DNA of 39,986 bases, taken from assembly GCF_019747315.1 (NCBI RefSeq), contig NZ_JAIEQY010000402.1:1-39986 (forward strand). Reading direction: 5' to 3'. The position numbers were made by a program, and so were the translations under genes. Within the stretch, counting starts at the first letter, position 1. Every line of letters begins with the position of its first letter. The notes beneath the pieces are model-generated. The model did not search any database, was not told the DNA's origin, and saw only the letters and a list, made by a program, of their open reading frames with translations. The DNA is from Roseococcus sp. (lineage in GTDB: Bacteria; Pseudomonadota; Alphaproteobacteria; Acetobacterales; Acetobacteraceae). This document shows, piece after piece, positions 30,197 through 39,193 of this stretch.

Positions 30197-30392
30197 GGGG
30201 GGCTTTGCCCCCCGAACCCCCCACCAAAGGCCGATAGGCCTCTGGACACCAGCTATGGGGATTGGGGAGAGGGGCATGCGACCACCGCCGCGCCAGAGCC
30301 CCCTTCGTGCCCCTCTCCCCAATCCCTACAACTCCTGGGTTCAAAGGGCCTCTCGGCCCTTTGCGGGGAGCGCGAGGGGCAGCGCCCCTCGC
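30197..30392. repeat. Cluster of GC-rich palindromes between dnaN and recF
   Basis: Hairpins GGGGGGC-TTT-GCCCCCC (30197-30213), AGGCC-GATA-GGCCT (30228-30241), 19-bp perfect inverted repeat GGGATTGGGGAGAGGGGCA (30258-30276)/TGCCCCTCTCCCCAATCCC (30308-30326), AAAGGGCC-TCTC-GGCCCTTT (30343-30362), GCGAGGGGC-AGC-GCCCCTCGC (30372-30392). Confidence 0.85.
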
Positions 30393-30405
30393 TGCCGGCC
30401 GTGAC

Positions 30406-31539
30406 ATGCTCCGCCTGACCCGCCTCCGCCTGACGCGGTATCGCTCCTACGCAACGGCGGAGTTGCGCTTTGGCGCGCCGATGGTGGTGTTCACCGGCCC
30501 CAATGGTGCGGGCAAGACCAATCTTCTGGAGGCGATCAGCCTGCTCGGCCCCGGGCGTGGCCTGCGCGGCGCGCGGATCAGCGAGGTGGCGGCCGGCGGT
30601 GCCGCGCCCTGGAGCGTCTCCGGCCATTTCGATGATGGGCTGGGCGGGTTCGAGATCGGCACAGGCAGCCTGGAGGAGGGGAGTGCCGAGCGCCGCGCCT
30701 TCCGGCTGGACGGCGCGAAGATCAGGGCCCAGGCGGAATTGGCCGAGCGCGTGGCGGCGGTCTGGATCACGCCGCAGATGGACCGGCTGTTCCAGGAGAG
30801 CGCCGGCGGGCGGCGCCGCTTCCTGGACCGCCTGGCGATGGCGTTGGAGCCGCATCTGGCGCGCGAGGCGACGGCCTATGAATCCGCCATGGCGGGGCGG
30901 AACCGCCTGCTCCAGAAGGGCCGGGCAGAGGCCGCCTGGCTGGCCGGGCTGGAGGATGCGATGGCAAGGCATGGCATTGCCATCGCGGCCTCGCGCAGGG
31001 CACTGGTGGCACGGTTGAACGCCGCCATGGAGGGTAACCGGCCCGGTGCCTTCCCGGCCGCCATCCTGGCCCTGCAATGCCCCGCCGCCGCCCTGCTCGA
31101 GGAGATGCCCGCCCTGGCCGCCGAGGACGCCCTGCGCGCCTCCTGGGCCACCTCCCGCGGGCGGGATGCGGCGGCGGGGGCCACGCTGAGTGGCCCGCAC
31201 CGGGCGGACCTGCTGTTCACCCATGCGGCCAAGGCCATGCCGGCCGGGCTTTGCTCGACGGGCGAGCAGAAGGCCCTGCTGATCTCGACCGTGCTGGCCC
31301 ATGCCGGGCTGATCGCGGCGGCAAGGGGCTTCGCGCCGCTGCTGCTGCTGGATGAGGTGGCCGCCCATCTGGACGAGGCGCGGCGCCGGGCGCTGTTCGA
31401 GGCGCTGGCGGCACTGCCCGCCCAGAGCTTCCTGACCGGCACCGATGCCGAAGTTTTCGCCCCGCTTTCGGGCCATGCCGAGCACTGGCAAATCACCCCT
31501 GGCGAGGCGCATCCGGCACCCCTCGCCCTGGGCGCGTAA
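30406..31539 (+). CDS. recF: DNA replication/repair protein RecF
   Basis: MLRLTRLRLTRYRSYATAELRFGAPMVVFTGPNGAGKTNLLEAISLLGPGRGLR (Walker A), LSGPHRADLLF, STGEQKALLIS, LLLLDEVAAHLDEARR; between dnaN and gyrB. Confidence 0.96.
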   Translation: MLRLTRLRLTRYRSYATAELRFGAPMVVFTGPNGAGKTNLLEAISLLGPGRGLRGARISEVAAGGAAPWSVSGHFDDGLGGFEIGTGSLEEGSAERRAFRLDGAKIRAQAELAERVAAVWITPQMDRLFQESAGGRRRFLDRLAMALEPHLAREATAYESAMAGRNRLLQKGRAEAAWLAGLEDAMARHGIAIAASRRALVARLNAAMEGNRPGAFPAAILALQCPAAALLEEMPALAAEDALRASWATSRGRDAAAGATLSGPHRADLLFTHAAKAMPAGLCSTGEQKALLISTVLAHAGLIAAARGFAPLLLLDEVAAHLDEARRRALFEALAALPAQSFLTGTDAEVFAPLSGHAEHWQITPGEAHPAPLALGA

Positions 31540-34031
<2,492 letters not shown>

Positions 34032-35342: not shown

Positions 35343-35403
35343 GGCCGGCGCTTCACCTTGTCTTAAGCCGGGCGCGTTAAGCGTAGGGACCCCTAAAAAA
35401 AGG

Positions 35404-35757
35404 ATGGTCACCTTGAAGACGTTGAAGTTGGCCGTGGCCCTGGTCACGAGCTTGTCCATCGCGCCGCTTGCTTCGACACAGGCCGAGCGCAGCCCGGTTT
35501 TCGGGAGCGCAACCGTCGAGGCGCTGTCCCTGGAAGCGTCGCGCGACATCATGGCCCGCGGCTTCTGGGCAGATTACCATGGCAATTTGGCGATATCCTT
35601 CGCGTATACCGCGTATATCTACGCCTTCTATGCCAGATATTACGCTGGTTCAAATACTGCGAATGAGAGGGCGTGGTATGAAGTGGCCATGAGCCAAGCC
35701 TACTGGGCTTATATCAACGCGTGGTACGCCATGATCTATTCGGCGGCTGGCGTGTAA
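35404..35757 (+). CDS. Small secreted Tyr/Trp-rich protein with internal 32-residue repeat; candidate exported substrate
   Basis: Signal peptide (LKLAVALVTSLSIAPLASTQA) followed by aromatic-rich sequence with two copies of AYxAYIxA[FW]YAxxY (AYTAYIYAFYARYY and AYWAYINAWYAMIY). Alternative TTG start at 35413 better spaced from AAAAAAAGGA. Confidence 0.75.
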   Translation: MVTLKTLKLAVALVTSLSIAPLASTQAERSPVFGSATVEALSLEASRDIMARGFWADYHGNLAISFAYTAYIYAFYARYYAGSNTANERAWYEVAMSQAYWAYINAWYAMIYSAAGV

Positions 35758-35765
35758 CTCCTGTC

Positions 35766-36938
35766 ATGGCCAGCAACAGACAAAATGTCTGGAACCGATC
35801 TCTGCCTGGCCTGGGGCGGGTGTTCCCCGTTCCTGCCGCATCAGCCCTAATCCTCGCGGTGCTCGGCGCCCCCGCTCCGGCGGCGGCGCAACCGCCGCCC
35901 GCTGGTCCGGCCGAGGCCCAGCAGGCACATTTGCTCGAACGCATTCGCCTGCTGGAGCGCCGCCTGGCGCAGCTGGAACGTACCACTCCGCCGCCGCGCC
36001 CAAGCCGCGCCGCGCCGGTGACACCCACGCCGCCACCCCAGCCCGCCCGCGCCGAACCGCCCTCTCCAACACCGCCCCCGCCCGCAGAACGGGCCCGCGA
36101 CCCGCAGGATCAGGAAATCCCGCAGGAGGCCTTCGTCTTCCGGGACCAGGCCGTCACCCTCCGCCCCGGCCGGGCCGAGGCCTCGCTCGACCTCGCCTAC
36201 CTCCGGGACCGCCGAACCGTCTCCTCCGACCGCAGCGCCTCCGCGATCCTGACGGGCCGAATCGGCGTGATGGACGGGGTGGAGGCCTCCATCGCCATTC
36301 CCTTCTTCCAGTCGACCCGTACCTTCGAACGCTCGGCCAGCAGCATCATGGACCGCGAGATCCGCGGCATCGGCGATGTCACGGCCCAGGTGAACATGCT
36401 GGGCTGGGGGGAGCGCCCCTCCTGGCCCGGCGCCGTCTTCACCGCCGCCGTCGTCACCCCGACCGGACCTTCCCCCTTCGTCAACCCGGTGCGCGGCCTC
36501 AACGCCGAGCAGATCCCGGTCGACATCACCCAACTCATCAGCACACGGGGTGTCTGGGCGCTGCGCGGCGGGGTGCAGTTCTTCAAGACGGTTGATCCCA
36601 TCGTGCTTTTCGGGGGCGTCTCCTATGAATACGCCTTCCCGCTCGAGCAGGGCGGCATCACCTTCCGGCCGGGCTGGCGCGTCAACTACAATGCCGGCTT
36701 CAGCTTTGCGCTGAGCGATCGCTCCACCCTCGGCTTCACCTTCATCGGGAACTACACCGCGGCGCTCAAGGCCGACGCCTTCACCTATCGCACCACGGCG
36801 AGCGAGGCGGCCGTGCTGCGCATCTCCCTCGTGCAGCGGCTGGGCGCGAGTCTCTGGATGGAGCCCGCCTTGGCCTTTGGCCTCGTCTCCGACAGCCCCA
36901 ACGTCCAGCTGGGCCTCGGCCTCCGATACAGGTTCTGA
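35766..36938 (+). CDS. Predicted outer-membrane beta-barrel protein with N-terminal coiled coil and Pro-rich linker
   Basis: Signal sequence ending APAAAQ; heptad stretch AEAQQAHLLERIRLLERRLAQLER; long Pro-rich linker; C-terminal alternating amphipathic strands ending in aromatic YRF, typical of OM barrels. Confidence 0.75.
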   Translation: MASNRQNVWNRSLPGLGRVFPVPAASALILAVLGAPAPAAAQPPPAGPAEAQQAHLLERIRLLERRLAQLERTTPPPRPSRAAPVTPTPPPQPARAEPPSPTPPPPAERARDPQDQEIPQEAFVFRDQAVTLRPGRAEASLDLAYLRDRRTVSSDRSASAILTGRIGVMDGVEASIAIPFFQSTRTFERSASSIMDREIRGIGDVTAQVNMLGWGERPSWPGAVFTAAVVTPTGPSPFVNPVRGLNAEQIPVDITQLISTRGVWALRGGVQFFKTVDPIVLFGGVSYEYAFPLEQGGITFRPGWRVNYNAGFSFALSDRSTLGFTFIGNYTAALKADAFTYRTTASEAAVLRISLVQRLGASLWMEPALAFGLVSDSPNVQLGLGLRYRF

Positions 36939-36941
36939 ACC

Positions 36942-37598
36942 ATGCCCCTGATCCGCCGAACCCTCCTCCTCATGCTCCCGGCCACACCGGCCCTCGCGGC
37001 CGAGCCCGTGATGCGCCGCCCGCAATCCTGGCAGCAGCGCCGCTTCGCCAATGTCGTCCGCCAGGTCCTGGAATTCTCCTGCGGCAGTGCCTCGCTCGCT
37101 ACGCTGCTCACCTTCTACCAGGGCCGCCCCACCACCGAGTTCGAGATCATCACCCTGCTGCGCCAGCGCTACCCCGGCGAGGAGGCCTGGCGGACCAAGC
37201 AATCCCAGGGCTTCTCCTTCGAGGACATCATCTTCGCGGCCGACCGGCTGGGCTTCGCCGCCCAGGCCGCCCGCATCGAGGTGCCGCAACTGCCGCAGAT
37301 CGCCGGCCCCGTCATCGTCCATCTGGACAAGGGCGCCTGGCAGCATTTCTCCGTCCTCCGCGCCTCGCGCGAGGGCTTCCACTACCTGGCCGATCCCATC
37401 CAGGGCCAGGTCACCATGCTCGATGGGGAGTTCCGCCGCGAATTCACCGGCGCCGTCCTGGCCGTCTGGCGGCGGGGGCAGGGGCTGCCGGACCGCTCCC
37501 CCCTGCAGGCCGTGCGGGACGGTGTCTCCGTGGAGCGCACGGTGTCGCGGGCCATCCAGACCGCGCTGCCGCCCGGCGGCATGCCGATCCCCTTCTAG
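36942..37598 (+). CDS. C39-like cysteine peptidase, secreted/periplasmic
   Basis: Signal peptide MPLIRRTLLLMLPATPALA; VVRQVLEFSCGSASLATLLTFY (catalytic Cys, TGC at 37080-37082), GAWQHFSVLRASREGFHYLADPIQG (His and Asp motifs), matching the C39 Cys-His-Asp arrangement. Confidence 0.85.
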   Translation: MPLIRRTLLLMLPATPALAAEPVMRRPQSWQQRRFANVVRQVLEFSCGSASLATLLTFYQGRPTTEFEIITLLRQRYPGEEAWRTKQSQGFSFEDIIFAADRLGFAAQAARIEVPQLPQIAGPVIVHLDKGAWQHFSVLRASREGFHYLADPIQGQVTMLDGEFRREFTGAVLAVWRRGQGLPDRSPLQAVRDGVSVERTVSRAIQTALPPGGMPIPF

Positions 37599-38174
37599 AT
37601 GCACCGCACCCTCATCGGCCTCGCGCTGCTCGCCGCGGGGCCCGCCTGGGCCGACCCGCGCTGCGCCCACCTGGGCCAGGCGGCCTACAGCGCCACGCGC
37701 CTCACCTCCACCGATGGTGCGCCCGCCACCGCCAGCCGCGTGATGCTCCACGGCCCCCGCCAACGCCTGGAAGCCCCCGGCCCGGGTGAGGGCCGCCTCG
37801 TCACCCTCATCACGCCGGAGCTGCAGGCCATCTTCCTGACCACCGCGCAGCCCGCTGTCGCGCTCCGCATGCCCACGCCCCCGCCGCTGCCCGAGGCCAC
37901 GGAGCGCCGCCAGCGGGAGGAACGCGGCCGCGCCGGCATCACCCTCATCACGGAACTCCGGGGTGCCAGCGGCCAGTGGCATATGGTGGAGCGCAGCCTC
38001 TGCCGCCGCGACGGCGTGCTGCTGGAAGCCTGGCAATGGCAGCCCGGCCCGCGCGGAGCCCGCATCATCGAGACCCGCCAGAGTGACATCCGCACGCTCC
38101 GGCCGGACGCCACCCTGTTTCGCCTGCCCGACGGATTCAGACTGATGGACCCGCCACCCTCTGTGCGGCCGTAG
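37599..38174 (+). CDS. Secreted protein of unknown function, last gene of the C39/OMP cluster
   Basis: Signal peptide MHRTLIGLALLAAGPAWA, starts immediately after the C39 stop; C-terminal TLFRLPDGFRLMDPPP resembles periplasmic LolA/DUF4412-type proteins only weakly. Confidence 0.65.
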   Translation: MHRTLIGLALLAAGPAWADPRCAHLGQAAYSATRLTSTDGAPATASRVMLHGPRQRLEAPGPGEGRLVTLITPELQAIFLTTAQPAVALRMPTPPPLPEATERRQREERGRAGITLITELRGASGQWHMVERSLCRRDGVLLEAWQWQPGPRGARIIETRQSDIRTLRPDATLFRLPDGFRLMDPPPSVRP

Positions 38175-38209
38175 CGCCGGTCCAGGGACCTGCGCTCCGG
38201 CCTGCGGGC

Positions 38210-39193
38210 TCAATCCGCGAACTGCCCGGCCGCCTGGATGACCGGGCGCCACCGCGCCACATCGGCCGTCCAGAAGGCCCGGTGCGCGGCCGGCGTCGCC
38301 TTCGCCTGGGGCACCGGCTCGGTGCCCAGATCCGCGAAGCGCCGCACCAGCCCCGGATCCCGCAGCGCCGTCTGCAGCGCGCCGGATAGCCGGGCCACCA
38401 GCTCCGGATTCGTGCCGCGCGGCGCGTAGAGCCCGTGCCACACGCTCACCTCGAAGCCGGGCATCCCCGCCTCGATCGCCGTGGGCACGTCCGGCAAGGA
38501 AGCCACGCGGCTATTCGTCGTCACCGCGAAGGCCTTGATGGTGCCGGCCCGGATGTGCTCGGTCGTGTTCGTCGTCTGGTCGCACATCAGGTCCACCGTG
38601 CCGGCCACCAGATCATTCATCGCCGGGCCCGTGCCGCGGTAGGGCACCGTCGTCAGGGGCACGTTCATCGCCTGCTGGAACAACAGCCCGCAGAGGTGCG
38701 AAGCCGCCCCCACGCCCGCATTGGCCAGGTTGATCTTGTCCCGGTCCCGCCGCACCAGCGCCACCAGCTCGGCCAGGTTGTTGGCCGCGATGTTCCGCTT
38801 CGCCACGATCGTCATGGGGACTTCGGTGATCATGCCCACCGTCTCGAACCCGTTGATCGGGTCGTAGGCCAGCCGGCGATACAGCGTCGGGATCGTGCTC
38901 ATGCCGATGTGGTGGACCAGCAGCGTGTAGCCATCCGGCCGCGCCGCCGCGGTGCGCTGCGCGCCGAGCGTGCCGCCCGCCCCGCCCACATTCTCGATCA
39001 CGACGGAGGTGTTGAGGTCCCGCCCCATCGCCTCGCCCAGCAGGCGGGCCACGGTGTCGGTCGGGCCGCCGGCCGCGAAGGGCACGATGATGGTGATCGG
39101 TCGGCTCGGATAGGCCTGGGCCGAGGCCAGGGCCGGGGCGGCCAGGCCAGCGGCCACAAGGGCCGGGAGCTGACGCCGGGTCAAACGGGGCAT
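38210..39193 (-). CDS. Bug/TctC-family tripartite tricarboxylate transporter substrate-binding protein
   Basis: MPRLTRRQLPALVAAGLAAPALASAQAYPSRPITIIVPFAAGGPTDTVARLLGEAMGRDLNTSVVIENVGGAGGTLGAQRTAAARPDGYTLL, TVPYRGTGPAMNDLVAGTVDLMCDQ. Confidence 0.94.
   Translation of the reverse strand: MPRLTRRQLPALVAAGLAAPALASAQAYPSRPITIIVPFAAGGPTDTVARLLGEAMGRDLNTSVVIENVGGAGGTLGAQRTAAARPDGYTLLVHHIGMSTIPTLYRRLAYDPINGFETVGMITEVPMTIVAKRNIAANNLAELVALVRRDRDKINLANAGVGAASHLCGLLFQQAMNVPLTTVPYRGTGPAMNDLVAGTVDLMCDQTTNTTEHIRAGTIKAFAVTTNSRVASLPDVPTAIEAGMPGFEVSVWHGLYAPRGTNPELVARLSGALQTALRDPGLVRRFADLGTEPVPQAKATPAAHRAFWTADVARWRPVIQAAGQFAD

Follow-up and report, generated by a model that had tools for sequence, protein, structure and literature searches.

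What four tightly packed genes in Roseococcus sp. accomplish together, when their products are a small aromatic protein, an outer-membrane barrel, a C39 peptidase and a further secreted protein, is the question raised by a locus in the window analysed here (the whole stretch of DNA, 39,986 nucleotides). The original prediction likened the locus to the fap operon of Pseudomonas, on the grounds that it combines a barrel, a C39 peptidase and a small substrate. In some Roseococcus-type bacteria, this four-gene operon appears to make, trim and export a small tyrosine-rich protein across the outer membrane, with relatives of the two machines by which Pseudomonas exports its biofilm amyloid. The genes are called here the small or cargo gene, F (barrel), D (peptidase) and u (Table 1). 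ORF coordinates confirm four plus-strand genes within 35404-38174, separated by gaps of 8, 3 and 0 bp, and the export signals predicted at the N-termini of all four products were likewise found.

Table 1. Features of the four-gene cluster, in window coordinates
Feature	Position	Strand	Remarks
Conserved element GCTTCACCTTGTCTTAA	35350-35366	+	Between cfa and the small gene; -35-like CTTGTC
Small cargo gene	35404-35757	+	117 aa as called; companions F and D in every occurrence
Cargo signal peptide	35404-35484	+	Residues 1-27, predicted end STQA27; hydrophobic N-terminus, called by eye
Cargo pro-segment ERSPVFGSATVEALSLEASRDIMARG	35485-35562	+	Residues 28-53; most conserved stretch of the protein
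Proposed mature cargo	35563-35754	+	64 residues, predicted helical hairpin
F gene (FapF-type barrel)	35766-36938	+	390 aa
F coiled coil	35907-35984	+	Short, N-terminal
F barrel	about 36129-36935	+	
D gene (periplasmic C39 peptidase)	36942-37598	+	218 aa
D catalytic Cys47	37080-37082	+	
D catalytic His135	37344-37346	+	
D catalytic Asp151	37392-37394	+	
u gene (secreted protein)	37599-38174	+	191 aa

Conservation and start of the operon

The order small gene-F-D-u is kept in all seven species of the genus survey that have this D, which argues against a chance cluster. D is present in 7 of the 21 genus genomes; an eighth match (G279) was rejected as a 747-aa frame with the size of a C39-ABC transporter. 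In six species the cluster lies in the interval between cfa and tctC, while in L068 it is located elsewhere and neither neighbour is present. As kinship partly explains co-occurrence within one genus, this second site constitutes the more telling case. A clean empty site, sought in genus members lacking the cluster, was not found, because those that keep cfa have no adjoining tctC.

Searches of the genus, the family, a class sample and plasmids revealed no case of the small gene without F and D, and in the sample of the small-gene search the nine genus genomes without the small gene also lack the true D. Conservation of the small gene beside the barrel-peptidase pair had been set beforehand as a test, together with a co-occurrence survey across the Acetobacteraceae: as far as searched, the gene is confined to the genus and always adjoins the pair. 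Since it occurs only with F and D, in a constant order, the objection that the association might not be conserved in relatives fails. No homologue of the small protein was detected outside the genus in 398 family genomes, the class sample or plasmids; a weak match in G344 proved spurious, its frame running antisense to longer ORFs. F and D are each single-copy in the genome. Between species, the small gene has a dN/dS of 0.15-0.28, D and F have 0.12-0.24, and u has 0.27-0.40; this overall range (0.12-0.40) indicates that the four ORFs are real genes under purifying selection. Two long minus-strand ORFs of the window (35847-38441, 864 aa; 30253-33909, 1218 aa) lie opposite real genes and seem to be mirror frames that arise from high-GC coding sequence.

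Translation of the small gene probably begins at TTG 35413 instead of ATG 35404, which would shorten its product to 114 aa. The sequence AAGGA (35400-35404) overlaps the ATG and stands 8 nt before the TTG; in relatives the latter codon is TTG, GTG or ATG, and the upstream ATG is replaced by ACG in L033 and L066. The preference for TTG is thus based on Shine-Dalgarno spacing and on the relatives with ACG at the upstream position. The element that precedes the gene contains a 16-base core, CTTCACCTTGTCTTAA, which is identical in all six species with the cfa/tctC site and matches once in the window even at 3 mismatches (0 expected). No consensus sigma-70 promoter was called. The element looks like the operon promoter and may have a regulatory role.

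The barrel and the peptidase

F matches the NCBIfam FapF profile at 1.3e-17 (63.7 bits, equivalog cut-off 700) and the FapF crystal structures at 1.1e-13 (PDB profile), the FapF match being good over the C-terminal half only. D matches the NCBIfam FapD profile at 9.1e-24 (84 bits, equivalog cut-off 330) and Pfam C39 at 2.1e-17. Because these scores fall well short of the equivalog cut-offs, F and D count as homologues of FapF and FapD but not as fap equivalogs. The profile searches of the four proteins proposed earlier therefore lead from F to FapF and from D to FapD, leave the cargo and u without a family match, and uphold the suggested fap logic by homology. Co-localised fapD and fapF homologues are known in five additional phyla (PMC6173800). 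The Fil system of Acinetobacter resembles the cluster in its pair of a C39 protein (FilB) and a barrel (the transporter FilC), whose NCBIfam models match D at 3.9e-17 and F at 3.3e-08; however, these matches are weaker than those to FapD and FapF, and no other Fil component was seen.

The PTG motif of F (residues 232-234) is conserved, and no C39 leader is visible within the F of the window. The AF2 model contains a helix (residues 48-73) and strands, with a mean pLDDT of only 41.7 and a barrel that is not confident. The predicted architecture of coiled coil and barrel is thus favoured by FapF homology and weakly by the model, whose confidence is too low for the proposed fold comparison; the identity of F consequently relies on sequence homology.

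FapF-like barrels and uptake porins belong to one superfamily, a point against the export reading, and F could be a COG4313/Phenol_MetA uptake porin placed in its neighbourhood by a genus-specific accident. Porins of this type are the presumed ancestors of FapF (PMC6173800), and F matches Pfam PF13557 weakly (E = 0.015, 15.8 bits, under the gathering cut-off of 22). The far better score with the FapF profile led to rejection of a known uptake porin, which the original prediction had named as a possible refutation. Moreover, F-type barrels are constantly paired with C39 genes: of the 34 stand-alone periplasmic C39 genes in Acetobacteraceae and further Alphaproteobacteria, 31 have such a barrel no more than about 4 kb away, and two of the three exceptions are at or near contig ends. 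With the four genes still together at a second genomic site, the porin explanation is highly improbable, and an export barrel remains the preferred assignment.

In D, Gln41, Cys47, His135 and Asp151 are invariant in 11 diverse members, and the FapD match combined with the retained Cys47, His135 and Asp151 disposes of the earlier concern that the C39-like protein might be an unrelated enzyme. A C39-ABC transporter of type 1 secretion was also considered and rejected: D consists of 218 aa, contains C39 only and has its own export signal. Two further C39 matches (L085 and L087, from G569 and G665) contain one in-frame TGA; shorter open frames of 184 and 197 aa span the domain, and the match probably runs past the stop. 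One Acetobacteraceae locus (L049:1165-2631) carries a tandem pair of FapD-like C39 genes.

The cargo and a leader motif beside FapD-like genes

The cargo represents a new protein family, restricted to the genus as far as searched; Pfam and NCBIfam gave zero matches, and PDB sequence and fold searches returned nothing significant. Ala27, at the predicted end of the signal peptide, is invariant across the aligned species, and the consensus that follows is AERSPVFGxATIEAISxEAaRDITARG. The proposed mature part comprises exactly 64 residues with zero indels in all seven species, is 30-41% Tyr/Trp/Phe and has a near-neutral charge (1-2 Lys/Arg, 2-3 Asp/Glu). A secreted hairpin of this length and aromatic content would be an unusual material protein. 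Residues 62-80 and 94-112 form a two-fold repeat with an offset of 32 (alignment-level p = 0.001), composed of two units of 16-19 residues each. The AF2 model, a hint built from four aligned sequences only, places helices at residues 54-79 and 86-115 (pLDDT about 75-83), the first beginning directly after Ala-Arg-Gly 51-53. Repeat and modelled hairpin agree with the aromatic, helical-looking repeat substrate described originally.

How such a cargo might be recognized by D is suggested by other loci. The substrate of FapD is recorded as undetermined (PMC5557850, PMC6173800); FapC secretion requires its catalytic Cys (PMC5557850), and a later review lists FapE and FapF as suspected substrates (PMC12822426). 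Secreted proteins beside other D genes contain a double-glycine-type motif after the signal peptide, roughly [LIV][ST]xx[EQ][LM]xx[IVLM]x[GA][GR] (L034-L049, L101-L118, L138, and L139), for example LSDNELGELRGG (L105), LTDGQMDRVTAG (L049), LSDAEMSEIVARG (L113), and LSDAELADQGARG (L046). Motif-bearing neighbours include L105:6719-7495, L113:6058-6501, and L138:5462-5950. A leader PSSM was trained on Acetobacteraceae alone and tested on held-out families, in which the motif is 14-fold commoner at distances of up to 1 kb from D than beyond (p = 1e-7); the choice of the training motifs by eye is a weakness, to which the held-out test is a partial answer. A leader-like frame occurs within 2 kb of D at 17 of 18 loci.

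The motif is also found in barrels. In Cupriavidus metallidurans it is present in both genes that flank fapD and also after the coiled coil of the FapF-like protein, and the F of Polymorphobacter carries a leader-like motif as well. Among the FapF-like proteins, it occurs between coiled coil and barrel in several (L102:4984-6384, L110:10085-11500, L138:7907-9379, and L139:7276-8640; e.g., LSDDELGEARGG and LEDQVLGTQRARG), as if FapD severed a periplasmic domain from the pore. Its occurrence in FapD neighbours and in the FapF linker agrees with published mass spectrometry data that point to possible processing of FapE and of the FapF linker (PMC5557850). The motif is a candidate answer to the FapD substrate question; it supplies a concrete candidate cleavage site and makes the FapD target testable.

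In the cargo, the best PSSM window of the alignment is ISxEAaRDITARG (residues 41-53), which has a column-permutation p of 0.0025 and shares the register of the motif beside other D genes. It reaches about 4 bits, whereas no genuine leader scores below 7, and the Acetobacteraceae-only matrix gives it about 0 to 4; it departs from the leaders in Ser/Ala instead of Leu/Met at position 6 and in ARG in place of GG. Residues 41-53 could plausibly represent a degenerate C39 leader and a candidate site of cleavage by D.

Relation to fap and nap, and a proposed mechanism

The cluster works like the FapF/FapD half of the fap operon. It shares with Pseudomonas fapABCDEF (PMC5557850) a coiled-coil FapF-type barrel with a PTG motif and a periplasmic FapD-type C39 peptidase with intact Cys, His and Asp, whereas its gene order is cargo-F-D-u between cfa and tctC, and its cargo is Tyr/Ala-rich with a two-fold repeat, without the GN/NQ repeats of fap subunits. 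Pfam and NCBIfam revealed no counterparts of FapA, FapB, FapC or FapE in the operon, the cargo and u being unmatched; the predicted absence of FapA, FapB and FapE is thus borne out, and the cluster is not a fap operon.

The presence of both machines nevertheless raises the alternative of a true functional amyloid (Fap) system with a Tyr-rich cross-beta subunit in place of FapB/FapC. For the AYxAYIxAxYA-type aromatic repeats, packing into beta strands is conceivable in principle, and the aromatic periodicity of the cargo has two maxima, near 85 and near 155 degrees. Besides the missing Fap components, however, the cargo is fixed at 64 residues with a constant repeat number, differs from the Gly/Asn-rich cargoes of neighbouring families and is modelled as a helical hairpin, which makes a true Fap amyloid distinctly unlikely. 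The amyloid or fibre idea of the original prediction found no support, as FapB/FapC repeats are absent, cargo length is fixed and the AF2 model is helical; this part of the earlier reading is mildly disfavoured. Fap-like loci of other Acetobacteraceae and Alphaproteobacteria (L034-L049 and L101-L118) also combine a D-F pair with a cargo bearing a C39-leader motif after the signal peptide, but these cargoes are Gly/Asn/Gln/Ser/Thr-rich, often accompanied by a sigma-54-type regulator, and none resembles the Roseococcus small protein. Near one D-F pair, three secreted proteins consist almost wholly of GNGNGN repeats behind a leader-like motif (L048:5190-7160).

Direct searches of Pfam and the family library with u gave zero matches, and a profile of seven u homologues retrieves scattered relatives, including one paralogue in the same genome that matches DUF4412 (PF14371) at 2.3e-05, above the cut-off. 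The secreted periplasmic protein u is thus probably a divergent relative of DUF4412-like proteins. No u relatives were found in the other Fap-like loci examined.

Among published systems, the nap island of Neisseria comes closer in plan than fap; it encodes the C39 peptidase napP, the FapF homologue napF and the peptides napABC (PMC11798529). Both loci are compact and unite a stand-alone C39 peptidase, a FapF-type barrel and a small helical leader-bearing peptide, although the leader of the Roseococcus cargo is a weak match. This union suggests that the cargo might be a peptide with a bacteriocin-like or autolytic function, on the pattern of Neisseria nap or Caulobacter Cdz, and u its periplasmic immunity protein; u, a secreted protein, lies directly behind the machinery genes, and in a collection of 72,556 plasmid records D is matched best by a C39 gene of Neisseria gonorrhoeae (38%). 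Nap peptides, however, are cationic, 16-36 aa long and have a classical GG site, whereas the single Roseococcus cargo is 64 aa, near-neutral, Tyr-rich, with an ARG site and without a glycine zipper. The nap island further contains regulator, immunity-like and holin-like genes that the Roseococcus operon lacks, having a putative DUF4412-like partner, and u appears to group with widespread DUF4412-like periplasmic proteins located away from such clusters. A bacteriocin role is therefore unlikely.

The evidence is best accommodated by a compact export-and-maturation module, with Sec-type entry, trimming by D, exit of the aromatic cargo through F and u as an accessory, and this reading is considered probable. 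The small protein would cross the inner membrane by general secretion, using its own signal peptide, and D would cut off the conserved pro-segment ending at ARG (residues 51-53) in the periplasm. The 64-residue aromatic hairpin protein would then leave through F, presumably a trimer gated by the short coiled coil and linker; we infer the outward direction of this transport. An accessory or chaperone function in the periplasm is likely for u. The product would most likely be a surface-associated or secreted self-assembling peptide of the biofilm or envelope.

A broader generalization, in which FapF/FapD machines form a general route, FapD trims C39-type leaders and sometimes the FapF linker, and Roseococcus adds a new non-amyloid hairpin cargo, is tentative and somewhat doubtful. 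Should the cargo prove helical rather than amyloid, the export role of FapF-type barrels would be wider than amyloid biology implies. Having a single candidate cargo and a single candidate cut site, the operon offers a far simpler test bed than fapABCDEF. A possible extra component of Fap-like loci is a secreted protein of ~210 aa common to two of them from other families (L109:5599-6225 and L110:9410-10042).
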